NCBI GenBank assembly: GCA_025355645.1
Contig: JANXZG010000003.1
Coordinates: forward strand, 1-64,000
Source of the DNA: Gammaproteobacteria bacterium
GTDB lineage: Bacteria > Pseudomonadota > Gammaproteobacteria > Steroidobacterales > Steroidobacteraceae
Direction: 5' to 3'
Length of the DNA: 64,000 bases
Shown: positions 12,812-27,824 of the stretch, in pieces
How the letters are laid out: each line of letters opens with the position of its first letter
How positions within the stretch are numbered: position 1 is the stretch's first letter
Made by a program: the position numbers and the translations under genes
Notes under the pieces: generated by a model
The model's database searches: none
What the model was told of the DNA's origin: nothing
The model's input: only the letters and a program-made list of their open reading frames with translations

Positions 12812-13780
12812 ATGATCAAGCCCTCCGTACCGCGCCTGCTCGTCGTGATGGACCCGATCGAGGCCATCAAGCCGGCCAAAGACAGCACCTTGGCCATGCT
12901 GCTGGCGGCACAGGGCCGCGGCTGGCAAGTCCTGTATGCCGAGCAGAAGGCGCTGTCGCTGCGCGATGGGGTCGCCATGGGGCGCCTGTCGCCATTGGAG
13001 GTTCGTGACACGACGAGCGGCTGGTTTGATCGCGGCGAGCCAAAAAACTGCCGATTGGGGGACTGCAGCGTCATATTGATGCGCAAGGACCCGCCCTTTG
13101 ACCTCGAATACATCTACACCACCTATATCCTGGAACGTGCTCGCGACCAGGGCGCACTGGTGGTCAATGATCCGCGCGGCTTGCGCGACATCAACGAAAA
13201 GGTCTATACGGCCTGGTTTCCGCAATGCTGTGCGCCGACCCTGATTACGCGCGACATGGCGGAAATGGCCGAATTCCTGCGCGAGCACGGCAAAGTGGTC
13301 TGTAAGCCCCTGCACGGCATGGGCGGCCGGTCGATCTTCGTCGTCGACCAGGGCGACAAGAACCGCAATGTCGTGTTCGAGACGCTGACCGACTATGGCA
13401 AGAACTTTGCGATGATCCAGCGCTACCTGCCAGAGATCGTCGCGACCGGGGACTGCCGTATCCTGCTGGTGGATGGCGAACCCGTGCCATTCAGCCTGCA
13501 GCGCATACCCGATAGCGGCGATAACCGCGGCAACCTCGCAGCCGGCGCCCGCGCCGAGAGCCGCGCCCTGACCGACCGTGACCGCTGGCTGTGCGCGCAG
13601 ATCGGGCCGCGCATGCGCGACGCAGGCATGATTTTCGTCGGCCTCGATGTGATCGGCGAGTACGTCACGGAAATCAATGTCACGAGTCCGACCGGCATTC
13701 GCGAACTCGACAAGCGCCATGAGCTGGACATCGGCGGCATGTTGCTGGACGCGATTGCCAGGATACCTGGAGCAACATGA
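12812..13780 (+). CDS. gshB: glutathione synthetase GshB
   Basis: ATP-grasp ligase (322 aa; E. coli enzyme about 316) that joins gamma-glutamylcysteine and glycine in the cytoplasm. Hallmarks are LLVVMDPIEAIKPAKDST at the N-terminus, DPPFDLEYIYTTYILERA (about 93-110), VVCKPLHGMGGRSIFVV in the ATP-grasp loop, and EINVTSPTGIRELD near the C-terminus. It heads the operon gshB, tonB-like, yqgE, ruvX, pyrB, with four-base overlaps between several genes, an order widely conserved in gammaproteobacteria. Confidence 0.95.
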   Translation: MIKPSVPRLLVVMDPIEAIKPAKDSTLAMLLAAQGRGWQVLYAEQKALSLRDGVAMGRLSPLEVRDTTSGWFDRGEPKNCRLGDCSVILMRKDPPFDLEYIYTTYILERARDQGALVVNDPRGLRDINEKVYTAWFPQCCAPTLITRDMAEMAEFLREHGKVVCKPLHGMGGRSIFVVDQGDKNRNVVFETLTDYGKNFAMIQRYLPEIVATGDCRILLVDGEPVPFSLQRIPDSGDNRGNLAAGARAESRALTDRDRWLCAQIGPRMRDAGMIFVGLDVIGEYVTEINVTSPTGIRELDKRHELDIGGMLLDAIARIPGAT

Positions 13781-14688
13781 GCACTGCCGTTGTGCGGGGC
13801 GGGCTACCGGCGACCGCGGATCGCCTGATGACCACGTTTTTCCTGGCGGCCGTGCTGCACGCGATCCTGATACTGGGGGTTACCTTCAGTGCACCCGTGG
13901 AACACGGCGACGGCGATGAAACCCACGGGATGGAGGTCATTTTGGTCGACCAGCAAGCCCCCAGCGTGGCGCATAACGCGGCTGCGCCCTACCTCGCGCA
14001 GCGCAGCCAGCAAGGGTCCGGCAACTCATCGACCTCGGAACAAACGCTGATCCCAAAGTCTGCGCCGATGACCGTCATGCAGGCCGGCAGCGACAATGGC
14101 GCGGGCAGCGGCGATGCGCCTGAGAGCGGCGCGATGCTCGGGGAGGAGGCGCGCGTGGCCTCCACCGCCCCCGCGCCGCGCATTGTGTATTTGGGCACGG
14201 TCAGCAGCGCAGAAGCTGCCGCTCCGCAGCAACTGACGCTGTCGACCTTGCCGACCCTGGGGGTCAGCGCGAATGAGGAAGGAGTTGAGCTGCGCGTGCG
14301 GGGCGCGACCAAGCAGGCGCTATGGGTGACCGCGGACACGCGTGCCTCCGACATTGCCGTGTACCTTGATCACTGGCGGCACAAGATCGAGCGCATTGGG
14401 ACCTTAAATTTTCCGAATGTCGCGAAGCGCCAGAAATATTCCGGCACGCCGGTCATCGCGGTCGTGATCGACTCGCGCGGCAAGCTGGCGGAAGCCTCGA
14501 TACGCAGGACCAGCGGCCATCGCGAACTGGACGATGCGGCGCTGCGGATCCTGAAGCTCTCCGCCCCATTTGATCCGTTTCCCGCCGAGCTCGGTGCGAC
14601 GCATGACCGGCTACGCATCGCCTACGAGTGGCAATTCCTGGGCGGCGCGTTCGCAAGCTCGGCGGTCGCGGTAGTGGAGAGCCCATGA
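13777..14688 (+). CDS. TonB-family C-terminal domain protein
   Basis: 303-residue protein with one N-terminal membrane anchor (about 18-37, FFLAAVLHAILILGVTF), a long low-complexity periplasmic region, and a TonB C-terminal domain (about 205-290) visible as IGTLNFPNVAKRQ, GTPVIAVVIDSRGKLAEASI and SGHRELDDAALRILKLSAPF. TonB proteins pass proton-motive energy to outer-membrane receptors. Genes like this are regularly found between gshB and yqgE, as in Pseudomonas. No exbB/exbD or receptor gene is nearby. It starts inside the gshB stop and ends in an ATGA overlap with yqgE. Confidence 0.8.
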   Translation: MSTAVVRGGLPATADRLMTTFFLAAVLHAILILGVTFSAPVEHGDGDETHGMEVILVDQQAPSVAHNAAAPYLAQRSQQGSGNSSTSEQTLIPKSAPMTVMQAGSDNGAGSGDAPESGAMLGEEARVASTAPAPRIVYLGTVSSAEAAAPQQLTLSTLPTLGVSANEEGVELRVRGATKQALWVTADTRASDIAVYLDHWRHKIERIGTLNFPNVAKRQKYSGTPVIAVVIDSRGKLAEASIRRTSGHRELDDAALRILKLSAPFDPFPAELGATHDRLRIAYEWQFLGGAFASSAVAVVESP

Positions 14689-15251
14689 GCGAGAGCGGCT
14701 ACCTGACTAACCAGCTGCTGATCGCGATGCCGGCGCTGGGCGATGAGAATTTCTCACGTTCGGTCACGCTGATCTGCGATCACAGCGCGAGCGGCGCGCT
14801 CGGCCTTATCCTGAACAAACCCCTGCAGATGCAGCTGGGCGAGATCTTCCGGCAACTGCAGATCGACATCGGTGGCGGCGCCAATGCGAGCGAGCGCGCC
14901 GTACTTCGCGGCGGGCCGGTCCAGGGCGACCGCGGGTTCGTCGTGCATCGCGCCGGCGGGCAGTGGGAGTCGACGCTCAAGGTCTCGGATGCGATTCACG
15001 TGACGACGTCGCGCGATGTACTGCGGGCAATCGCCCGCGGCGAGGGGCCCGAGGATGCGTTCCTGGTGCTGGGCTATGCCGGCTGGGAAAGCGGCCAGCT
15101 GGAAGAGGAGATCCGGGCAAACGCCTGGATCACGGCCCCGGTCGAGCCGAAGCTCGTCTTTGAGGTGCCGTTTGAGAAACGCTGGGACGCCGCCGGGCAG
15201 CTGCTGGGCGTCGAGCTTTCGCGCATTAGCCCCGTCAGCGGCAATGCCTGA
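14685..15251 (+). CDS. yqgE: YqgE/AlgH family protein
   Basis: 188-residue UPF0301 protein. The N-terminal YLTNQLLIAMPAL, FSRSVTLICDHS and GALGLILNKPL are diagnostic, as is VLRGGPVQGDRGFVVH. Its biochemical role is not established; in Pseudomonas the homologue AlgH affects alginate and other traits. The start ATG 14685 overlaps the previous stop; the frame stays open further upstream, but those residues have no family match. RuvX follows with overlap, the usual pairing. Confidence 0.9.
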   Translation: MSESGYLTNQLLIAMPALGDENFSRSVTLICDHSASGALGLILNKPLQMQLGEIFRQLQIDIGGGANASERAVLRGGPVQGDRGFVVHRAGGQWESTLKVSDAIHVTTSRDVLRAIARGEGPEDAFLVLGYAGWESGQLEEEIRANAWITAPVEPKLVFEVPFEKRWDAAGQLLGVELSRISPVSGNA

Positions 15252-16767: not shown

Positions 16768-18126
16768 CTACTGAGGCTCGATATCCGCCGCCGCTTTTTC
16801 AGCGCTCGGCGGGTTTTGATACCGGCGCGGAAAGATCACCCGGAAGGTCGTGCCAGCACCGGGCGAAGTCTCGAGCTCGAGGCTGGCATCGAGCAGTTCG
16901 CACAACCGCTTCACGATGGATAATCCAATCCCTTCGCCCCCGAGGTCGCAGGCTGACCCCTGGGGAGACCTTGACGTCAAGGTGGGAGCAGGATCGAGCT
17001 TCTCGGACTCCCCGCGACTCGGGTTAGCGTGCTCCTCGACTTGATGAGACTCTTCGGTTGCACGTTTGAGCGCACGTTGAAGGGGCTCGGCAGTTCTCAC
17101 ATCCAGGCCCGGTCCAGTATCCTGCACGCACAGAATCCACTGCTCGCGCTTACCGACGGCGCGTTCCTCCCAGGTCACTCGCACCCCGCCGCGCGAGGTG
17201 GCATTAAGTGCATTGGTGATAAGGTTTTGGGCGATGCGTTGCACCTTGACCGGATCGCCTTCGACGGGCAGGGTTGCAACCCCTTCCGTCTCAAAAAAAA
17301 GATGGCGCTCCGCCGCTAATGCCCGCAACGGGTCGCAAAACGCAGTCAGTATCTGGGCCGCGTCGAAGCTCGTGGGGTTGCGGCGCTCTTGCCCCGATTC
17401 CAACCGCGCCAAGTCCATGAGATCCACCAGCAACGCGTGCAATGAGGTGGTGCCGCGGTGCAACACCTGCGACATGCGCTCCCGCGCGGATTCTGCCACG
17501 CCGTCGCGCCTCAGCACGGCAGCAGCCGTGGTCACCACATTCACGGTGCTGCGCAAATCATGCGCCGCCTCCCGCCATCGCTCGGCGCGCTCACGATCTA
17601 CCGATTGCAGATGCTGCACGGCCTGCTCCAAGTCGTGCAGACGACTCGCGGCCTCGACTTGCTGCATACGCGCATATCGGGCCGTACTTTCGCACACGCC
17701 GTCACCGCATAAGCGCACCAACGCGCGCCGGGCTTGATGCATAACGGTTGCCGAAGTCGAAGGGTGGGTCCTCGCGTAGTGGTCCAGCTCCTCGAGCAGG
17801 CAAATATGCAAATGCGCCCACTCGCGCATGGTCTGGGCCTGGTTGTACCCTTGTTGCCAGCGATGCAGGCCGTGTTCGCCGGCGCTTTTCTTCTGCTCGG
17901 CGCTGGCCTGCTTTTTCTCGCGAAAGTCCTCCGCACAGAGCAGGTCAGCAAAGGCATCGAGTAGCTGTGGGATGTGGTCGTAAAACTGCGCGCGGGAAAT
18001 TGATGACGCGGTCGTCAACCCCGGGTCTGCATCGACCAGTTGATGCCACGCCTGCAAAATCAGCGGCCGCCTACGCGTCAGGTGGCCGGCAAGGTTATCT
18101 AACTGTTCCCTGTTTGATGCAGTCAT
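16768..18126 (-). CDS. soluble sensor histidine kinase with RsbRD-like N-terminal helical domain
   Basis: 452 residues without membrane segments. The first 160 residues are helical, with LTRRRPLILQAWHQL and a GLHRWQQGYNQ segment, resembling RsbRD-type sensory domains seen in soluble kinases. HisKA follows with H189 in REAAHDLRSTVNVV, then HATPase_c with N-box QNLITNALNATSRGG, DTGPGLD and GEGIGLSIVKRLCELL. A polar loop of about 45 residues sits between the DTGPGLD and GEGIGLS boxes, longer than usual. No partner response regulator lies next to it, so it is an orphan; its target is unknown. Confidence 0.8.
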   Translation of the reverse strand: MTASNREQLDNLAGHLTRRRPLILQAWHQLVDADPGLTTASSISRAQFYDHIPQLLDAFADLLCAEDFREKKQASAEQKKSAGEHGLHRWQQGYNQAQTMREWAHLHICLLEELDHYARTHPSTSATVMHQARRALVRLCGDGVCESTARYARMQQVEAASRLHDLEQAVQHLQSVDRERAERWREAAHDLRSTVNVVTTAAAVLRRDGVAESARERMSQVLHRGTTSLHALLVDLMDLARLESGQERRNPTSFDAAQILTAFCDPLRALAAERHLFFETEGVATLPVEGDPVKVQRIAQNLITNALNATSRGGVRVTWEERAVGKREQWILCVQDTGPGLDVRTAEPLQRALKRATEESHQVEEHANPSRGESEKLDPAPTLTSRSPQGSACDLGGEGIGLSIVKRLCELLDASLELETSPGAGTTFRVIFPRRYQNPPSAEKAAADIEPQ

Positions 18127-20179: not shown

Positions 20180-21075
20180 TCATCTCAGGCGCACGAGCGG
20201 CTCTCCCATCCGGATGCGCTGCCCTGCGATCAGCCCTTCGAGCGACATCCCATTGGGCACAAACAGGATGATGGTCGAGCCATGTTCGAACCAGCCCATT
20301 TCCTGGCCCCGCTCAAACAGGGCATCGCAGCGAAACTCGTACGGGCCCCGATAACGAAGGTGCAGCAGCACATCCAGGAAATGCAGCCGGATGCTCGCGA
20401 CCAGCACGGCCGCCAGTGGCACCAGCGTCACCAGCTGCCCTGAGGCGGTGAGCCGGCAACGGATCACCGCCCGTTCATTCCTGCAGTACATGCGCGCGAT
20501 GCGTCGCAAGGCAATCGGGTTGACGTTCCAGCAATCCCCCGACAGGTAGGTGACCTGCTCCACGCGACAGTCGCCGGGCGCATGGAAGCGGTGGTACATG
20601 CCGGAGGTCAGGCGCAGGGTCGCGAACCTTCCACCGCGGTAATAGCGCACCAGCCGTGGGTCCGCGAGCAGGTCAAGCAATGGATAGGCAGATCCCTTGG
20701 CCTGCAGTACCGAACCGTCCGTTACCTCTCCGCAGGCGCCCACGATCGCATCGCACGGACTGACAAGCCAGCCAGGGTCGGCCGCGATCGGGCGCGCGCC
20801 GGCCTGCAGCTCGCGCGTGAAGCACTCGTGCAGGCTGGCAAACCGCCTTTTTTTGCGTCCGACAGATCCAGCTCCGCAAAGCGCTGCCACAGCCAGATCC
20901 CCGCCCGGCACAACCACGGGTGGCGGATGCGGCTGACCCAGCCCATGAAGCGAGTCAGCTGCCGTCGTGCCAGCAGGTTGCTTAGCACGAAATTAAGGTC
21001 TTCCTGCTGCGAGAGGCGCTTGAGCCAGGAGCGCTCGGTCACGGAAATGTCATCGCCCTGCCATACATTGGCCAC
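20180..21075 (-). pseudogene. psd: phosphatidylserine decarboxylase, interrupted by a frameshift
   Basis: Psd removes CO2 from phosphatidylserine to make phosphatidylethanolamine at the inner membrane. The N-terminal part is in one frame (LTRFMGWVSRI, then AELDLSDAKK) and the rest in the next (RFASLHECFTREL, VSPCDAIVGACGEV, LRLTSGMYHRFHAPGDCRVE, and EMGWFEHGSTIILFVPNG). The HGST block holds the Gly-Ser where the pyruvoyl cofactor forms. The shift falls at a run of seven A on the coding strand (20848-20854); eight A would restore one frame of about 298 residues. It may be a sequencing error, a true mutation, or polymerase slippage. The start GTG 21075 is two bases from the divergent aminotransferase start. 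Confidence 0.8.
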
Positions 21076-21077
21076 GG

Positions 21078-22775
21078 ATGCTCGACCTGTCTCCCTTCTT
21101 ACTTTATGCGCTTGGCGCGTTGATCGGCGTGAGGCTGCTGCGCAAAGCGCAGCGCCGCCTGCAGCTCTCGCGCGCCAAGCACCCCTCCCTGACCGGTCAT
21201 GCGCGCCTGTCGCGCCGCTTCGCCGCGTGGGTGCCGCCCTACGACTACGGCGAAGCGCAATTCTTCCAGGTTGACGGGGCGCCCGCGGAGAGCGCGGCGC
21301 TGCGCCGCACGGGCTTTGCGCGCCTCGAACAGGAATTTGCGCGGCTGTTCCCGAAAAGCGCTCAACTGACCGCGCAGGTGCAAAGCTCGATCTCGGATCT
21401 GCAGTTCACCTCGCGCTACCGCATTCCCTTCCCGTTCAGCCGTTATGTCCGTGAGCGCTTGCAGGGTGGAGCCTTCCTCGAGTCTTCCGCGGGCGTGACA
21501 GTCACCGACCTGGACGGCAACCGGCTCTTCGACTTGACCGGCTCCTATGGGGTCAACGTGTTCGGGTATGACTTCTACAAGGAGTGCATCGCGCGCGGCT
21601 GCGAGCGGGTCCGGGACCTCGGTCCGGTGCTCGGCGCCTACCACCCGGTAGTCGTCGCAAATCTCCGGCGGCTGCTGCAGATTTCGGGCCTGGATGAAGT
21701 GTCGTTCCATATGTCGGGAACAGAAGCCGTGATGCAGGCCGTGCGCCTGGCCCGGTATCACACCCGGAAAAAATACCTGGTGCGCTTTTGCGGCGCGTAT
21801 CACGGCTGGTGGGGCGATGTGCAGCCGGGCATCGGTAACCCGCTGCCCGCGAATGAAACCTACACGCTGCAGGACCAGGCCGAGGCGAGCCTGCGCGTGC
21901 TGCGCACCCGCTCCGATATCGCCTGCGTGCTGGTGAACCCCCTGCAGGCCATGCACCCGAATGCCAGCGCACCGGGGGATTCGACGCTGATCGACAGCGG
22001 CCGCCGCGCCCAGCTTGACCGCGCCGGGTACACCGACTGGCTGGCCCAGCTGGGTGCGGTGTGCACGGCAGGCAACGTCGTGCTGATCTTCGATGAAGTG
22101 TTCCTGGGCTTTCGGCTGGCCGCGGGCGGCGCGCAGGAATACTTTGGCGTGCGCGCCGACTTGGTTACCTACGGCAAGACGGTGGCCGGTGGCCTTCCCG
22201 TCGGCGTGTTGTGCGGCCGGGCGGCCTTGATGAAGCGCTTTCACGAGGAGCAGCCCGCGGATATCTGCTTCGCGCGCGGCACCTTCAACGCCCACCCCTA
22301 CGTCATGGCAGCCATGCATGAGTTCCTGCAGAGGCTCGATGGGCATGCGGTGCGCGCGATGTACCGTGATCTCGACACCCTCTGGGATGGACGCGCCGCG
22401 CTGCTGAACGAGCGGCTGCTGGCGGTCAGCCTGCCGCTGCGTGTCGCGAACTTCTCGACCGTCTGGACCGTGCTCTATGAGCGGCCGTCGCGTTACAACT
22501 GGATGCTCCAGTATTACCTGCGTGCGGCCGGCATCGCGCTCAGTTGGGTGGGCACCGGTCGGCTCATCTTCAGCCTTAACTACACGGACGCCGACTTTGA
22601 ACAAGTGGCGGCGCGCTTCGTCGCTGCGGCCGCGGCGATGAAGCAGGACGGCTGGTGGTGGAGCGATACGGCGCAGACCAATCAATCGATCAGGCGCCGG
22701 ATCTTTCGCGAGATGCCGTTCAGGCGCCTTGCTCTTTCACGTGGTGCATCGGGTCGAGCAGCTCGCCCCGCATGA
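21078..22775 (+). CDS. class III PLP-dependent aminotransferase with N-terminal membrane anchor
   Basis: 565 residues. Residues 4-20 form a hydrophobic anchor followed by a basic stretch; about 20-130 is an extra domain absent from ordinary family members. The fold-type I core has FHMSGTEAVMQAVRLAR, FCGAYHGWWGDVQPG, IFDEVFLGFRLA (PLP Asp near 339) and VTYGKTVAGGLPVG with the Schiff-base Lys at about 367. It most resembles glutamate-1-semialdehyde aminomutase-like proteins, but size and anchor argue against a haem role. Position beside psd and an Mpo1-like gene suggests a membrane-lipid or lipid-linked substrate; that is inference. Confidence 0.78.
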   Translation: MLDLSPFLLYALGALIGVRLLRKAQRRLQLSRAKHPSLTGHARLSRRFAAWVPPYDYGEAQFFQVDGAPAESAALRRTGFARLEQEFARLFPKSAQLTAQVQSSISDLQFTSRYRIPFPFSRYVRERLQGGAFLESSAGVTVTDLDGNRLFDLTGSYGVNVFGYDFYKECIARGCERVRDLGPVLGAYHPVVVANLRRLLQISGLDEVSFHMSGTEAVMQAVRLARYHTRKKYLVRFCGAYHGWWGDVQPGIGNPLPANETYTLQDQAEASLRVLRTRSDIACVLVNPLQAMHPNASAPGDSTLIDSGRRAQLDRAGYTDWLAQLGAVCTAGNVVLIFDEVFLGFRLAAGGAQEYFGVRADLVTYGKTVAGGLPVGVLCGRAALMKRFHEEQPADICFARGTFNAHPYVMAAMHEFLQRLDGHAVRAMYRDLDTLWDGRAALLNERLLAVSLPLRVANFSTVWTVLYERPSRYNWMLQYYLRAAGIALSWVGTGRLIFSLNYTDADFEQVAARFVAAAAAMKQDGWWWSDTAQTNQSIRRRIFREMPFRRLALSRGASGRAARPA

Positions 22776-23334
22776 GGTGAAACGGCGCCTTCCAGTAGGT
22801 CTTCGCATCGTTGAACGGGTCCGTGAGGATCTTGGTCAGCCCTACAAGGCCCGTCCTGACACCCCTCAGGAAAAACAGGTGTACCGTGCGAAACAGCAGC
22901 CCACCAATGCCGAGGGCCAGCCAGACCTCCCCGACATGGCGCAGGAATTCGCCGCGGTCGGCAGAGAGGGGGAACAGGCCGAAGCCGCGCGGGTCCAGCC
23001 ACAGCACTAGCGGGACCAGTGCCCAGAGCACATGCAGCACCACCTTGCGGCGCAGGTTGTAGCCGATCTTGATGGCTTCCTTGTGCTCATGGGTTGCGCG
23101 ATTGACCTGGTCATAGTCCTTCGGTTCGAAGAAGAAATGTCCGGACTGGCGGCTGACCATCGCGACCAGCCAGCCGATCAGCGCCGAGATCACCGGATCC
23201 TTGAACATCATCGCGTAGGCGACGATGAAGCTGATCGCACTGACAAAATGCAGCGACTGATTGATGCGGCTGTGATGGTAATAGCGATGATCGTCCCAGC
23301 GCTGTGTCCGCAATTCTTCCCAGAATCTGGCCAT
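22720..23334 (-). CDS. Mpo1-like (DUF962) membrane protein
   Basis: 204 residues with three to four hydrophobic helices. The N-terminus WDDHRYYHHSRINQSLHFV, followed by a helix pair and GHFFFEP, fits the Mpo1/DUF962 pattern (H..N..LH, GW, GH..fE). Yeast Mpo1 is an iron-dependent dioxygenase that shortens 2-hydroxy fatty acids; bacterial members are uncharacterised. Several His are present that could bind iron. It converges on the aminotransferase, overlapping its 3' end by 56 bases, and is divergent from the glycosyltransferase. Confidence 0.6.
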   Translation of the reverse strand: MARFWEELRTQRWDDHRYYHHSRINQSLHFVSAISFIVAYAMMFKDPVISALIGWLVAMVSRQSGHFFFEPKDYDQVNRATHEHKEAIKIGYNLRRKVVLHVLWALVPLVLWLDPRGFGLFPLSADRGEFLRHVGEVWLALGIGGLLFRTVHLFFLRGVRTGLVGLTKILTDPFNDAKTYWKAPFHLMRGELLDPMHHVKEQGA

Positions 23335-23474
23335 GGTGTTCCTCGAAACAGGACCAACGAATACGGTCGATGAGGCAAATATAGTATTTTTTTCGTTGCA
23401 GCTTCATGACAGCGAAGCCTTTCATCGGTGTGTCATCTTTGGATGCGATGCTGTGCGCCGATGGGAAGCCGGCG

Positions 23475-24479
23475 ATGAGAGTGATGATTGTGACGGATGC
23501 GTGGACGCCGCAGACCAACGGCGTCGTCAGCACGCTGACCGCGACCGCAGCAGCGCTCGAACGCTTCGAGCACGAGGTTGCGATGGTGACGCCGAACCAG
23601 TTTCCCAATATCGCCTGCCCGACCTACCCGGAGATCCGGCTCTCGCTGAACCCGGACGGGAAACTGGCCGACCGGTTCAGGAGTTTCCAGCCCCAGGCCG
23701 TGCACATCGCCACGGAAGGGCCGCTGGGACTTAGCGCACGCCGACATTGCCTGAAACGCCGCCTGCCGTTCACGACCTCCTACCATACGCAGTTTCCGCA
23801 GTACCTGCGGGCGCGCTACCCGATCCCGATCGCCCTGACCTACCGGATGTTGCGTTGGTTCCATGGCCGCGCGGTCTGCTGCATGGTCAGCACTGCCTCG
23901 ATGCGCAGCCAGCTGGCCGCGCGCGGGTTCGTGAACCTCGCGAGCTGGCGCCGCGGCGTCGATACCAACCGGTTTCGGCCACGCGAAAAGACGTTCCTCC
24001 TGGACCTGCCGCGGCCGATTGCGGCGTGCGTGGGCCGAGTTGCGGTAGAGAAGAATATCGAGGCGTTCCTGCGAATGCCCTGCAGCGGATCAAAGATCGT
24101 GATTGGCGACGGCCCGCAGCGCCCAAGCCTGCAGTCGCTAAACCCGGAAGTGCATTTTGCCGGGTTCCGTTTCGGCGAGGACCTGGCCGCGCACCTGGCC
24201 GCTGTCGATGTGCTGGTGTTTCCGAGCCGCACCGACACCTGTGGGCTCGTGATTCTGGACGCCCTGGCCTGCGGCGTGCCGGTGGCCGCCTATCCCGTCA
24301 CGGGACCGATCGACGTGATCGAGGAGGGAGTGACCGGCGTGCTGCACGAAGATTTGGCCATCGCCGCCGTGCGGGCGCTGTCAAACGATGCTACGGAATG
24401 CCGGCGGCGCGCGCTGCGCTGCGGCTGGGAAGTCTGCAGCCGCGAATTCGAGGCGAACCTCGCCCCCTGCCGCGCCTAG
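23475..24479 (+). CDS. GT4-family glycosyltransferase, diacylglycerol/mannosyl-type
   Basis: 334 residues from ATG 23475, which has GGGAAG upstream and gives the family N-terminus MRVMIVTDAWTPQTNGVVS; ATG 23406 would add 23 residues. The two Rossmann domains are visible: acceptor side with TSYHTQFPQYLRARYP, donor side with ACVGRVAVEKNIEAFL, VIGDGPQ and FPSRTDTCGLVILDALACG. This subgroup (SQD2/Agt-like) glycosylates lipids in several bacteria. The second acidic residue of the EX7E motif is Asp instead of Glu, and a usual Phe is Cys. The stop overlaps the convergent pilU-like gene by four bases. Confidence 0.78.
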   Translation: MRVMIVTDAWTPQTNGVVSTLTATAAALERFEHEVAMVTPNQFPNIACPTYPEIRLSLNPDGKLADRFRSFQPQAVHIATEGPLGLSARRHCLKRRLPFTTSYHTQFPQYLRARYPIPIALTYRMLRWFHGRAVCCMVSTASMRSQLAARGFVNLASWRRGVDTNRFRPREKTFLLDLPRPIAACVGRVAVEKNIEAFLRMPCSGSKIVIGDGPQRPSLQSLNPEVHFAGFRFGEDLAAHLAAVDVLVFPSRTDTCGLVILDALACGVPVAAYPVTGPIDVIEEGVTGVLHEDLAIAAVRALSNDATECRRRALRCGWEVCSREFEANLAPCRA

Positions 24480-25561
24480 CCGAAGTTGATCTTGGCCTCG
24501 AGATTGGCGCGCGAGTCGGCTGAGGACAGCGCTTCTTCCAGCTCGATCCTGCCCTCGCGCACCAGGTTGTATAGCGAAGCGTCGAAACTGACCATGCCGC
24601 GCTCGGTGCCGGTGCTGATCGCCTCCTTGATGCCGATGACATCGCCTTTCTTGACGAGCTCCGACATATGCGGCGTGTTGACCATGATCTCGGCGGCCGC
24701 GGCCCGTGCGCCGGTCTTGGTCGTGACCAGGCGCTGCGAGAGCACCGCCCGCAGGTATTGCGAGAGGTCGAGGAAGATCTGGTTGTGCTGTTCGCGCGGG
24801 AACATGTTGATGATGCGATCCAGCGCCTCGGCGCAGTTGTTCGCATGCAGCGTTGCGATGCACAGGTGGCCGGTGCCGGCCATCGCGATTACGGATTCCA
24901 TCGTCTCGCGGTCGCGGATTTCGCCCACCAGGATCACGTCGGGAGAGGCGCGCACGGCACTGCGCAAGGCGCGCGCGAATGACTTGGTATCGAGGCCCAC
25001 TTCGCGCTGGTTGACGATCGATTTCTTGTTGCTGTGCAGGAATTCAATCGGGTCCTCGATAGTCAGGATATGGTCCGACGAGGACTCATTGCGATAGTTA
25101 ATCATCGCGGCAAGCGTGGTCGACTTGCCCGCGCCCGCGGCGCCTACCATCAGGATCAGGCCGCGCTTCAGCATCACCAGTTCCTTGAGGATCTCCGGCA
25201 TGCCAAGATCGTCGAGCTTGGGCATTTCCGAGGTGATGTAGCGCAGCACCATGGCCGGGTTGCCGCGCTGGTAGAAAACCGTGACCCGGAAGCGGCCAAG
25301 GCCCGATTCCGAGATCGCGAAGTCGACATCGAGCTCCTGGTTGAAATGCTCGAGCTGTTCCTTGGTCATCAGGCCGATTGCCGCCTGGCGAACCGTCTCC
25401 GGGCTCAGGATCTGCTTGTTGACGGGAAAGATCTTGCCGTCGATCTTGATTTTGACCGGCGCATAACTTGTGAAAAACAGATCCGACGCCTTCTTCTCTA
25501 CCATTAACCTGAATAATGGCTTGGTATTCATCGACTGAATCGTATTGACTGCCGTAGACAT
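24476..25561 (-). CDS. PilT/PilU-family ATPase (second PilU-like copy)
   Basis: 361-residue hexameric secretion ATPase of the PilT family. Walker A is GAAGAGKST (140-148), the Asp box DHILTIEDPIEFLHS, the Walker B/GEIRDRETM segment, and the His box GHLCIATLHANN are intact. The C-terminal GMVSFDASLYNLVREG matches PilU-like proteins. PilU works with PilT in pilus retraction under load. It is the last of three paralogues in one minus-strand operon, 12 bases after the previous one. The A for T substitution in the P-loop is mild. A 30-base piece of this gene is duplicated at 20045-20074. Confidence 0.88.
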   Translation of the reverse strand: MSTAVNTIQSMNTKPLFRLMVEKKASDLFFTSYAPVKIKIDGKIFPVNKQILSPETVRQAAIGLMTKEQLEHFNQELDVDFAISESGLGRFRVTVFYQRGNPAMVLRYITSEMPKLDDLGMPEILKELVMLKRGLILMVGAAGAGKSTTLAAMINYRNESSSDHILTIEDPIEFLHSNKKSIVNQREVGLDTKSFARALRSAVRASPDVILVGEIRDRETMESVIAMAGTGHLCIATLHANNCAEALDRIINMFPREQHNQIFLDLSQYLRAVLSQRLVTTKTGARAAAAEIMVNTPHMSELVKKGDVIGIKEAISTGTERGMVSFDASLYNLVREGRIELEEALSSADSRANLEAKINFG

Positions 25562-25573
25562 TAATTGGCGCGC

Positions 25574-26719
25574 CTAGTTGGCGTCTTCGTCGATGATTTC
25601 GAGGTCCTTGCCGCCGTCTTCGTTGCGCACTTCGCGCTTGCTCTCGAGCTTGACGCGCAGGCGCAGCTCGTTCTTCGAGTCGGCATTGCGCAGCGCGTCC
25701 TCGTAGGAAACCAGGCCCGCCTCGAACAGCTCGAACAGCGATTGGTCGAAGGTCTTCATGCCAAGGCGATTTGAGCGGCTCATGACATCCTTTATCTTGG
25801 CCACCTCGCCCTTGAAAATCAAATCGGAGATCAACGGCGACTGCAACATGACTTCCATGGCCGCGATGCGCCCGGTGCCCGACTCGCGCGGCAGCAGGCG
25901 CTGCGAGATCAGCGCACGGATGTTCAGCGACAAATCCATCAGCAACTGCTCGCGCCGCTCCTCGGGGAAGAAATTGATGATGCGGTCGAGCGCCTGGTTG
26001 GAATTGTTGGCGTGCAGCGTGGCAAGCACCAGATGGCCGGTCTCGGCGAACTGGATGCCGTATTCCATGGTCTCGCGATCGCGGATTTCGCCGATCAGGA
26101 TGACGTCGGGAGCCTGCCGCAGCGTGTTCTTGAGGGCGATATGCCAATTCTCGCAGTCGACGCCGACTTCGCGGTGGGTAATCACGCAACCCTTGTGCGG
26201 GTGGATGTATTCGACCGGGTCCTCGATCGTGACGATGTGGCCGCGGGTCTTTTCATTGCGATAGCCCACCATCGCCGCCAGCGATGTCGACTTGCCCGAC
26301 CCGGTGCCGCCGACCATGATCACGAAGCCGCGCTTGGACAGGGCGACGTCCTTCAGGATCATCGGCAGCTCAAGTTCCTCGATCGTCGGGATCTTGGCGT
26401 TGATCGTGCGCAGCACGGCGCCGGTAAAGCCCTGCTGGACAAAGGCGCTGACTCGAAAGCGGCCGATGCCAGAGGGCGAAATGGCGAAGTTGCATTCCTT
26501 CGTCGCATCGAATTCCTTTGTCTGCCGGTCATTCATGACCGCCCGCACGAGCGCCGCGCTCTGCTCGGGCAGCAAGGAGCGCTCGGCCTGTGGGCGGATT
26601 TCCCCGTCGATCTTGATGGCCGGCGGAAAGCCGGCCGTGATGAACAGGTCAGAACCCTTTTTCTCGACCATGCGTCGCAGCAGGTCCTGCATCAATCGAA
26701 TGGCTTGATCGCGATCCAT
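25574..26719 (-). CDS. pilU: PilU, PilT-dependent retraction ATPase
   Basis: 381 residues. Start region MVEKKGSDLFITAGFPP and CNFAISPSGIGRFRVSAF are typical PilU. Walker A is GGTGSGKST (137-145); the Asp box IEDPVEYIHPHKG, GEIRDRETMEYGIQFAETGH and ATLHANNSNQALDRIINFFP follow. A charged C-terminal tail ending DEDAN is about 15 residues longer than usual. One base separates it from pilT upstream, so it is translated in the same operon. It would assist PilT in depolymerising type IV pili. Confidence 0.9.
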   Translation of the reverse strand: MDRDQAIRLMQDLLRRMVEKKGSDLFITAGFPPAIKIDGEIRPQAERSLLPEQSAALVRAVMNDRQTKEFDATKECNFAISPSGIGRFRVSAFVQQGFTGAVLRTINAKIPTIEELELPMILKDVALSKRGFVIMVGGTGSGKSTSLAAMVGYRNEKTRGHIVTIEDPVEYIHPHKGCVITHREVGVDCENWHIALKNTLRQAPDVILIGEIRDRETMEYGIQFAETGHLVLATLHANNSNQALDRIINFFPEERREQLLMDLSLNIRALISQRLLPRESGTGRIAAMEVMLQSPLISDLIFKGEVAKIKDVMSRSNRLGMKTFDQSLFELFEAGLVSYEDALRNADSKNELRLRVKLESKREVRNEDGGKDLEIIDEDAN

Positions 26720-26720
26720 A

Positions 26721-27761
26721 TCAGATGCTGTCCTTGTTTTGTGCCTTGAAGCGTGCCTCTTCGCGGCTGACCATGCCTTTCGTCACCATCTCCTGCAGGC
26801 ACTGATCGAGGGTCTGCATCCCGAGGCTCTGTCCAGTCTGGATCGCGGAATACATCTGCGCGATCTTGCCCTCGCGGATCAGGTTGCGGATCGCCGGCGT
26901 GCCAATCATGATTTCGTGCGCGGCGACGCGACCGCCGCCGATCTTCTTCATCAGCGTTTGCGAGATCACGGCGCGCAAGCTCTCCGAGAGCATGGCCCGG
27001 ACCATTTCCTTCTCGGCGGCCGGGAATACGTCGACGATGCGGTCGATGGTCTTGGCGGCAGAACTCGTGTGCAGCGTGCCAAATACAAGATGCCCGGTTT
27101 CCGCGGCGGTCAGGGCCAGTCGGATCGTCTCGAGGTCACGCATTTCGCCGACCAGGATCACGTCCGGATCCTCGCGCAGCGCCGAGCGTAGCGCCTCACT
27201 GAAGCCCAGCGTGTCGCGGTGCACTTCGCGCTGGTTGACGAGGCAGCGTTTGCTCTCGTGGACGAACTCGATCGGATCTTCGATCGTGAGGATATGGTCG
27301 GGCCGGTTATCGTTGCAGTGGTCCACCATGCCGGCCAATGTCGTCGACTTACCCGACCCGGTCGGCCCGGTCACAAGCACGAGGCCACGCGGCAGCATGC
27401 ACAAATCCTTGAAGGTCTTCGGCGCATTCAGCTCATCGAGCGTCAGGATCGTCGATGGAATGTTGCGGAACACAGCGCCGGCACCGCGATTCTGGTTGAA
27501 GGCGTTGACGCGGAAGCGCGCCAGTTTGGGGATTTCGAACGAAAAGTCGGTCTCGAAGAACTCTTCGAACGCCTTACGCTGCTTGTCGTTCATGATGTCA
27601 TACACCATGCTGTGCACTTCCTTGTGCACGAGCGCCGGCATGTTGACGCGCTTCATGTCGCCATCCACCCGGATCATCGGGGGGACGCCGGAGGACAGAT
27701 GCAGATCCGACGCGTTATTCTTGACCGCGAAGGCGAGAAGCTGCGCAATATCGACGGCCAT
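26721..27761 (-). CDS. pilT: PilT, type IV pilus retraction ATPase
   Basis: 346 residues. Walker A GPTGSGKST, ILTIEDPIEFVHESK (Asp box), VGEMRDLETIRLALTAAETGHLV (Walker B and AIRNLI-associated region), GTLHTSSAAKTIDRI (His box) and the AIRNLIREGK motif near the C-terminus all match PilT. It powers pilus depolymerisation at the inner membrane and thereby twitching. The start is ATG 27761 with AGGAG six bases upstream; a TTG one codon earlier is less likely. It is first of three ATPase genes and divergent from yggS. Confidence 0.95.
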   Translation of the reverse strand: MAVDIAQLLAFAVKNNASDLHLSSGVPPMIRVDGDMKRVNMPALVHKEVHSMVYDIMNDKQRKAFEEFFETDFSFEIPKLARFRVNAFNQNRGAGAVFRNIPSTILTLDELNAPKTFKDLCMLPRGLVLVTGPTGSGKSTTLAGMVDHCNDNRPDHILTIEDPIEFVHESKRCLVNQREVHRDTLGFSEALRSALREDPDVILVGEMRDLETIRLALTAAETGHLVFGTLHTSSAAKTIDRIVDVFPAAEKEMVRAMLSESLRAVISQTLMKKIGGGRVAAHEIMIGTPAIRNLIREGKIAQMYSAIQTGQSLGMQTLDQCLQEMVTKGMVSREEARFKAQNKDSI

Positions 27762-27824
27762 CAACGGCTCCTGATTAGGCCAAAGTAGGCCGTCTGAAGT
27801 ATAGGGAGGGTGCCATCACCCAAT

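Follow-up and report, generated by a model that had tools for sequence, protein, structure and literature searches.

The window, that is, the whole 64,000-nucleotide stretch of DNA analysed, carries four genes between positions 20180 and 24479 which an earlier note had listed as a possible membrane-lipid gene group. All four were found at their places, although the reading frame of psd is interrupted here.

20180..21075, minus strand: psd2, a second, divergent phosphatidylserine-decarboxylase-type gene; frame-broken near 20850-20856, homology-supported start GTG 21042
21043..21077, no strand: short divergent intergenic stretch from the psd2 start to the AT start; start placed by alignment, GTG checked
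21078..22775, plus strand: AT, an AMT-domain-type class III aminotransferase; PF00202 1.8e-29, hydrophobic N-terminal helix 5-33
22720..23334, minus strand: Mpo1-like small helical protein; PF06127 21.8 bits, under the cut-off of 24
23406..24479, plus strand: GT4 glycosyltransferase; PF13692, PF13439 and PF00534 above their cut-offs

The psd2 gene was recognised by a PF02666 match on the minus strand from 20180 (3.4e-53; 180.7 bits against a cut-off of 22), given by the C-terminal frame, which retains SPCD, YHRFHA and GST and also passes TIGR00163 (142.6 bits against 111.75). The two halves of the gene lie in different frames, the N-terminal half in that of 20722-21075 and the C-terminal half in that of 20180-20917, and these frames join at an A-run near 20850-20856. 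In 98 of the 99 rows that hold both halves (19 from the genus and 79 genome contigs, with some genomes counted twice), the halves stand in a single frame, and the exception, L001, is the window's own DNA. Programmed frameshifting at the A-run was thus rejected, as no relative needs it; the break may be an assembly error, a recent mutation or slippage. The psd2 and AT starts had been set two bases apart (21075/21078), a spacing obtained only with the first possible GTG, and this was not upheld. The alignment with relatives makes the in-frame GTG at 21042 the more likely start, leaving 35 bases before the AT start at 21078; in 90 divergent relatives the median psd2-AT gap is 44 bases, and a gap of five bases or fewer occurs in one of them. 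At the other junction, the converging AT and Mpo1-like genes indeed overlap at their ends, by 56 bases (22720-22775).

By its sequence, psd2 is an extra, divergent Psd-type copy. Residues D98, H151 and H154 and the GST motif, which we take to be the catalytic residues (the Asp-His-Ser set) and the processing site of PSD, are invariant among 27 aligned relatives; these residues, together with scores above the PF02666 and TIGR00163 cut-offs, liken psd2 to Psd (PDB 6l06 and 7cnw). It differs from Psd, however, in lying beside AT, in branching as a separate, long-stemmed clade, apart from other psd copies (support 99/99 in the tree), and in its processing site, which reads HGST in 93 of 101 sequences; of 15 psd copies of other kinds, 8 have LGST or MGST and the rest deviate or are without that pattern. 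The second psd of the source genome is located on contig C129, and a further near-full psd was detected in 25 of the 26 psd2 carriers checked. All 26 have at least two PF02666 matches, the second one in G135 being a fragment, and in all 26 psd2 adjoins AT.

AT meets the Pfam class III aminotransferase model PF00202 with 103 bits against a cut-off of 30.5. YGK is present in all 102 AT sequences and GTFNxHP in 101 of them, and K367 is the predicted PLP lysine by alignment with known enzymes. The best PDB match to AT, both by sequence and by fold, is the AMT domain of MycA (6kfm/6kfu), which has bacillomycin-type and other NRPS/PKS relatives; the fold match to 6kfm reaches Z 32.8 and rmsd 2.4 over 422 residues, and the next entry after 6kfm/6kfu 29.8. 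In the tree, AT and the AMT domains form a joint clade (support 100/99) with hemL outside, several own-genome outgroup rows lying on long branches. AT thus resembles the MycA domain in its class III fold, its clade, the GTFNxHP motif and the best fold match, but it is free-standing with a hydrophobic helix, is at most about 33% identical to the domain, branches separately on a long stem, and is found at loci from nearly all of which carrier and synthase genes are missing. Queries for PKS and for the non-AMT part of NRPS matched in one of 102 records only, L093 (adenylation/PKS-like; loci of at most 8-10 kb, window flanks included), and an ACP query over the 102 records matched only in its own source L154, a Sphingomonas locus. 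The AMT domain of MycA aminates acyl chains at their beta position, with glutamine as the donor (PMC3547906). Since nearly all of the loci are without carrier protein, ketosynthase and NRPS, AT may not follow this precedent, in which the beta-keto chain is carrier-bound.

The proposal that AT is unlike glutamate-1-semialdehyde aminomutase was confirmed. AT gives 153.8 bits against a cut-off of 527.3 for TIGR00713 and 160.9 against 398 for NF000818, and the separate hemL-type gene of the source genome, L002, reaches 516 bits against the same 398 as a 312-residue piece. At its N-terminus, AT has a hydrophobic helix at 5-33 and a second helix at 38-51; 6kfm aligns from residue 72 on, and the fold comparison barely covers the first 70 residues. 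The best 17-residue mean hydropathy is at least 1.2 in 102 of 102 sequences and at least 1.6 in 77, and helix 5-33 is probably a membrane anchor. As for the N-terminal anchor and extra domain of about 110 residues described by the earlier note, the hydrophobic helix agrees with the former, whereas the latter, measured against the AMT structures, came down to about 70 residues and is no separate domain.

Over residues 14-71, the Mpo1-like protein weakly matches the Mpo1/DUF962 2-hydroxy fatty acid dioxygenase family (PF06127), and its invariant histidines (H16, H20, H21, H29 and H66) fall within this part. Of the features expected for iron-dependent oxidation of 2-hydroxy fatty acids, these conserved histidines are what the sequences show. 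The window's protein stays below the Pfam cut-off (21.8 bits against 24); among 35 members, 31 give a PF06127 match with E of 0.01 or less. It further differs from the family in belonging to its own subgroup, which co-occurs with psd2 and AT. The predicted model is helical (pLDDT 89.8), and a fold search with it matched no known fold (best E 2.4). The 19-residue hydropathy maxima of 1.58 to 1.66 are borderline for membrane helices, and the protein probably sits in the membrane.

The neighbourhood proved to be conserved beyond the source genome, in alpha-, beta- and gammaproteobacteria by record title, with Methylocapsa, Zoogloea, Polynucleobacter and Sphingomonas among the genera so titled; some titles (Bordetella parapertussis, Chitinophaga) belong to environmental MAGs with doubtful names. 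We kept the best 80 of at least 587 places, picked by similarity to the window's AT, some of which come from the same or near-identical genomes (e.g., L016/L041 and the Polynucleobacter loci). Since a psd-like gene, AT and an Mpo1-like gene occur together in 79 of these best 80 of at least 587 places, the arrangement is far above chance, and psd2, AT and the Mpo1-like gene were also clustered in 20 of 21 further loci. The triple appears in several gene orders, same-strand arrays among them, and is therefore not a single inherited synteny block. In an even sample of 398 Pseudomonadota genomes, each of the three genes was found in 25 (about 6%) and all three together in 24: psd2 and the Mpo1-like gene are present in the identical 25 genomes, and AT in 24 of these and in one draft, there on a 4.4-kb contig. 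At L093, AT and psd2 are present and the Mpo1-like gene is absent from the DNA examined. Pairwise protein-distance correlations over 93 loci, calculated for the module genes only, were 0.78 for AT-psd2, 0.72 for AT-Mpo1 and 0.73 for psd2-Mpo1. Pfam was run on some of the recurring neighbour clusters, and a further recurring lipid gene may be among the rest.

The association with the glycosyltransferase is looser. At 56 of the best 80 of at least 587 places, a GT4 gene lies no more than 4.5 kb from AT, with none in the other 24, and in the betaproteobacterial-titled loci it is mostly 29-37% identical to the window's GT4 and may be a different gene. The window's gene had been described as a lipid glycosyltransferase of the SQD2/Agt type; its GT4 domains do score above their cut-offs, but it reaches no NCBIfam cut-off, lipid-specific or other. 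GlcN-PG synthase NF053787 and MGlcDAG synthase NF049988, which share the GT4 domains, are the first and third of its 20 NCBIfam matches, with about 55 (55.2) and 47 bits where 480 and 400, respectively, are the cut-offs. Many alphaproteobacterial loci carry an added PmtA-like methyltransferase, which was found at a distance of up to 4.5 kb from AT at 17 of the best 80 of at least 587 places and at 11 of the 21 further loci. For two of these proteins the best model is PmtA (NF045882), as for a bacterial phospholipid N-methyltransferase (Pmt); however, because their scores of 136 and 140 bits fall short of the cut-off of 390, they are not assignable to Pmt, and no such gene stands beside the window's genes.

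The best explanation, to which we give a probability of roughly 0.6, is that these genes are a module dedicated to the biosynthesis of a membrane lipid that bears an amine and is perhaps glycosylated. It draws directly on the gene content, the conserved catalytic residues, the co-occurrence, and the AT and psd2 clades. From the original idea of an amino- or sugar-modified head group, a dedicated amino-lipid group is well supported by the co-occurrence, whereas head-group remodelling and a sugar lipid of the SQD2/Agt type are conjectural, given that GT4 reaches no NCBIfam cut-off. In the proposed pathway, AT would be held at the inner membrane through the helix at its N-terminus. It would act as the AMT domain of mycosubtilin synthase does, passing an amino group from an amino donor to a lipid-bound substrate at a keto or aldehyde carbon. 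The self-cleaving pyruvoyl decarboxylase psd2 would strip the carboxylate from a lipid-bound amino acid to yield a primary amine; its substrate would resemble phosphatidylserine but need not be phosphatidylserine. The PmtA-like enzyme would methylate the product amine in many alphaproteobacteria, GT4 would put on a sugar head group, and the Mpo1-like protein could oxidise the acyl chain, if the chemistry of its distant namesake is kept. Quite tentatively, we suggest that this amounts to a widespread, undescribed proteobacterial lipid class, with its amine assembled directly on the lipid, and to a new aminolipid route. In this route, AT would introduce the amine at a lipid-bound carbonyl, psd2 would decarboxylate a lipid amino acid other than phosphatidylserine, the PmtA-like enzyme would methylate the amine (in alphaproteobacteria) and GT4 would add a sugar; alpha-, beta- and gammaproteobacteria would have exchanged the module as one piece. 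Counted against the lipid module were the near-absence of carrier and synthase genes, the TIGR00163 pass, the Mpo1-like protein with its sub-cut-off match, lack of a fold match and borderline hydropathy, the divergent or missing GT4, L093 and the broken psd2 of the window.

Alternatively, the genes could make a small diffusible metabolite, such as a signal or a siderophore-like compound, instead of a bulk membrane lipid, with AT acting on a free or carrier-bound keto acid, psd2 on a free amino acid, and GT4 decorating the product. PSD-type decarboxylases can use free amino acids, as does the fungal PsiD, and AMT domains and free-standing plasmid relatives occur in NRPS/PKS proteins or siderophore-type clusters. 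We nevertheless regard this as unlikely, given that among the 102 records the PKS and NRPS (non-AMT) queries matched only in L093 and the ACP query only in its source L154, that the AT N-terminus is hydrophobic, and that the solved relatives of psd2 are phosphatidylserine decarboxylases.

Since psd2 scores above the cut-off of TIGR00163, the ordinary Psd model, its product might be no more than phosphatidylethanolamine. In that case the genes would provide an auxiliary phosphatidylethanolamine/phosphatidylcholine route, in which psd2 is a Psd isozyme feeding the PmtA-like enzyme, and AT, the Mpo1-like protein and GT4 adjust ordinary phospholipids in their acyl chains or head groups. The retained catalytic residues of psd2 and the methyltransferases near AT fit such a route. 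However, a second near-full PF02666 match is already there in 25 of 26 carriers, psd2 is set apart by its long-stem clade and its HGST site and is tied to AT, and 63 of the best 80 of at least 587 places have no nearby PmtA-like methyltransferase, which makes the route improbable.

Modification of sphingolipids or hopanoids is very doubtful. On a plasmid of Sphingomonas parapaucimobilis, genes for serine palmitoyltransferase and ACP do lie about 10 kb away from the module, and hopene cyclase occurs in 16 of 27 carriers; but serine palmitoyltransferase (E of 1e-80 or less) was detected in 3 of the 27, all of one family and the source genome not among them, no Spt match stands beside any other AT locus examined, and hopene cyclase is missing from the source genome and 10 other carriers. 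As a general explanation, the link is largely refuted by these counts. A haem-pathway gene or spare hemL beside unrelated genes has next to no probability: hemL-type models match AT at 4e-47, but AT was rejected as a haem enzyme on the cut-offs, the tree and the separate hemL, and its nearly complete co-occurrence with psd2 and the Mpo1-like gene also speaks against this.

A description of the gene set was not found in the literature searched (titles and abstract openings, mostly without subscription papers). If the set makes a lipid, as we favour, many bacteria of soil and fresh water would have a membrane component with neither a pathway nor a name in that literature. The combination of psd2, AT and the Mpo1-like gene provides a tight annotation marker, without which AT could pass for a haem enzyme and psd2 for a housekeeping gene.

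Finally, in six loci from two families, GT4 carries an additional domain fused at its N-terminus, and the start of such a fusion is also seen in a seventh, L127. This domain is not assignable, as it gave no match in Pfam (two proteins) or in a PDB sequence search (one protein), although it resembles a PHP-type phosphoesterase in its HxH motif.

The second psd-type gene (psd2), the class III aminotransferase gene (AT) and the Mpo1-like gene form a discrete, co-inherited set with the catalytic signatures kept, and a GT4 glycosyltransferase gene lies beside them in the window:

21078-22775, + strand: AT, open frame
22720-23334, - strand: Mpo1-like protein, open frame
23406-24479, + strand: GT4 glycosyltransferase, open frame
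A-run near 20850-20856, - strand: psd2 frame break, where two frames meet

The overlapping ends of AT and the Mpo1-like gene described in the earlier note were confirmed, both being open frames. The psd gene is also present as claimed (PF02666, 3.4e-53), but split across two frames instead of running in one. The psd2 halves lie in a single frame in 98 of the 99 rows in which both were found, the exception being the window's own DNA, and the break may stem from an assembly error, a recent mutation or slippage. The claimed two-base gap between the psd2 and AT starts probably does not hold. Since an in-frame GTG at 21042, 35 bases from the AT start, aligns with the psd2 start of the relatives, the two-base spacing is probably an annotation effect; the median gap in 90 divergent relatives is 44 bases.

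We then collected AT relatives, at least 587 places at E up to 1e-3 (contigs, one genome per species), and kept the best 80. Among these 80 loci, psd2 was found within 4.5 kb of AT in all 80, the Mpo1-like gene in 79, both together in 79, GT4 in 56 and a PmtA-like methyltransferase in 17. The conservation of the neighbourhood across genomes, a point raised by the earlier note, was thus borne out, with record titles that include alpha-, beta- and gammaproteobacteria. The locus without the Mpo1-like gene is L093, whose flank holds an NRPS/PKS-like (adenylation-type) match at 13503-15029 that no other locus has. Of 21 further loci, 20 of them drawn from the phylum sample and one plasmid-borne, 20 carried the triple; L127, a 4.4-kb contig, carries AT and the start of a GT4 fusion gene and nothing else of the module. 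The commonest gene order was psd2- AT+ Mpo1-, others being GT4- Mpo1+ AT+ psd2+ and AT+ Mpo1- psd2+. Six loci carry AT, the GT4 fusion, psd2 and Mpo1-like as an array on one strand; by recorded kinship, their two families fall in different classes, f18 (L153) sharing that of the window and f55 lying outside it. Flanking pil and pyrB genes were common to close relatives only.

Co-occurrence was examined in 398 Pseudomonadota genomes of 213 genera, own genome included (E thresholds: AT and psd2, 1e-60; Mpo1-like, 1e-20). Each gene was found in 25 genomes and 11 genera; the psd2 and Mpo1-like carriers were the identical 25 genomes, and 24 of these carried AT. One genome (G302, 78% complete) had psd2 and Mpo1-like without AT, and another (G167) had AT alone, on L127. 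Among 40 near genomes, AT was found in 21, comprising this genome and 20 of its 22 congeners, with G003 and G015 as the exceptions; none of the remaining 17 genomes, each from a different genus elsewhere in the family and order, had it. The distribution of AT is patchy and its boundary sharp: matches passing 1e-60 share 54-71% identity, as against 36% for the own genome's next-best class III gene and, apart from one true member at 61.6%, at most 33% for plasmid relatives.

AT as a haem enzyme (hemL) was rejected: the genome's own hemL falls outside the clade of AT and the amine-transfer (AMT) domains of lipopeptide synthases, and AT, which matches PF00202, lies far under the cut-off of all 25 NCBIfam models among the matches listed (25 of 64), in line with the earlier statement that it is unlike glutamate-1-semialdehyde aminomutase. 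Among solved structures, AT comes nearest in sequence to the AMT domain of mycosubtilin synthase (1.2e-37), and a 26-row tree, with long branches on several own-genome paralogue rows, joins the AT family to AMT domains of NRPS/PKS proteins with support of 100/99. The best structural match of the AlphaFold2 model (mean pLDDT 82.6) was likewise 6kfm, from the mycosubtilin synthase MycA (TM 0.85 by target length, Z 32.8, rmsd 2.4, 422 residues). Modelling of the N-terminal part, suggested earlier, placed residues 1-71 outside this match, with a predicted hydrophobic helix within them; in none of the 102 members did the best 17-residue hydropathy fall below 1.2, and in 77 it was 1.6 or more. PMC3547906 states that the amine which the MycA domain places on the beta position of an acyl chain comes from glutamine. 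AMT domains sit in synthases, whereas no synthase was found beside AT: PKS and NRPS queries matched, outside AT itself, a single record of 102, L093; an ACP query of the loci matched only its own source.

At least two PF02666 matches were detected in all 26 carriers searched, one adjoining AT; the other copy is near-full length in 25 and a fragment in G135, and lies on contig C129 in the own genome. In a 37-row tree, psd2 forms one clade (99/99; 200/200 bootstrap trees), whose stem of 2.27 changes per column is a meeting point of long branches. An alignment of 27 relatives shows no variation at D98, H151, H154 or GST. Among 99 sequences longer than 240 residues, including the window's C-terminal frame, GST was kept in 98, YHRFHA in 95 and SP(C/S)D in 97. 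Histidine precedes GST in 93 of 101 psd2 sequences; in other psd copies this residue is leucine or methionine in 8 of 15, the remainder differing or lacking the pattern.

The Mpo1-like protein is predicted to be helical (model pLDDT 89.8), with invariant histidines and borderline hydrophobic helices. PF06127 was weakly matched by 31 of 35 members, the window's protein falling under the Pfam cut-off, and comparison of the model with solved folds gave no match. For GT4, the gene stood as the earlier note had it, but the SQD2/Agt lipid type was not supported, NCBIfam models giving no lipid-specific assignment. The own genome has no second GT4 match at E up to 1e-8, and the 56 neighbouring GT4 proteins share at least 45% identity with the window's in 26 cases and less in 30. 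In six loci (L144, L145, L147, L150, L151, L153), GT4 is fused to an N-terminal domain of ~520 residues, which gave no Pfam match (L150, L153) and no PDB sequence match (L150). Fourteen of the 17 methyltransferase loci have titles with genera or families that we take to be alphaproteobacterial. The two methyltransferases tested are PmtA-like yet under the cut-off; PMC8590670 describes a Pmt, PmtX1 of Bradyrhizobium diazoefficiens, that methylates monomethyl-PE.

We consider an amino-lipid pathway the probable role of the module (roughly 0.6). It would be located at the inner membrane and yield an amine-bearing lipid via transamination and decarboxylation, with methylation, glycosylation and acyl oxidation as optional extra steps. 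That the amine is built on the lipid itself is a more tentative proposal. Each enzyme is in or near a known family, and thus the parts are of known kinds; of the combination of genes and its tight co-occurrence we found no description in the literature searched.

Several neighbouring genes were also recorded. A Ppx/GppA-type phosphatase cluster occurs in the fetched flanks of eight loci, including L145 (7086-8699) and L038 (7830-9374), and both members tested match Ppx-GppA. On a Sphingomonas parapaucimobilis plasmid (L154, 11105-25578), a fatty acid desaturase and lptFG lie a few kilobases from the module, and serine palmitoyltransferase and an ACP ~10 kb away. In the window, 16768-18126 (-) encodes a histidine kinase whose N-terminal domain is of the RsbRD type, and three consecutive PilT/PilU-type ATPase genes, where two would be usual, lie at 24476-27764 (-), with T2SSE in all three; this trio also occurs in L031, L032, L035, L039, L040, L041 and L086.
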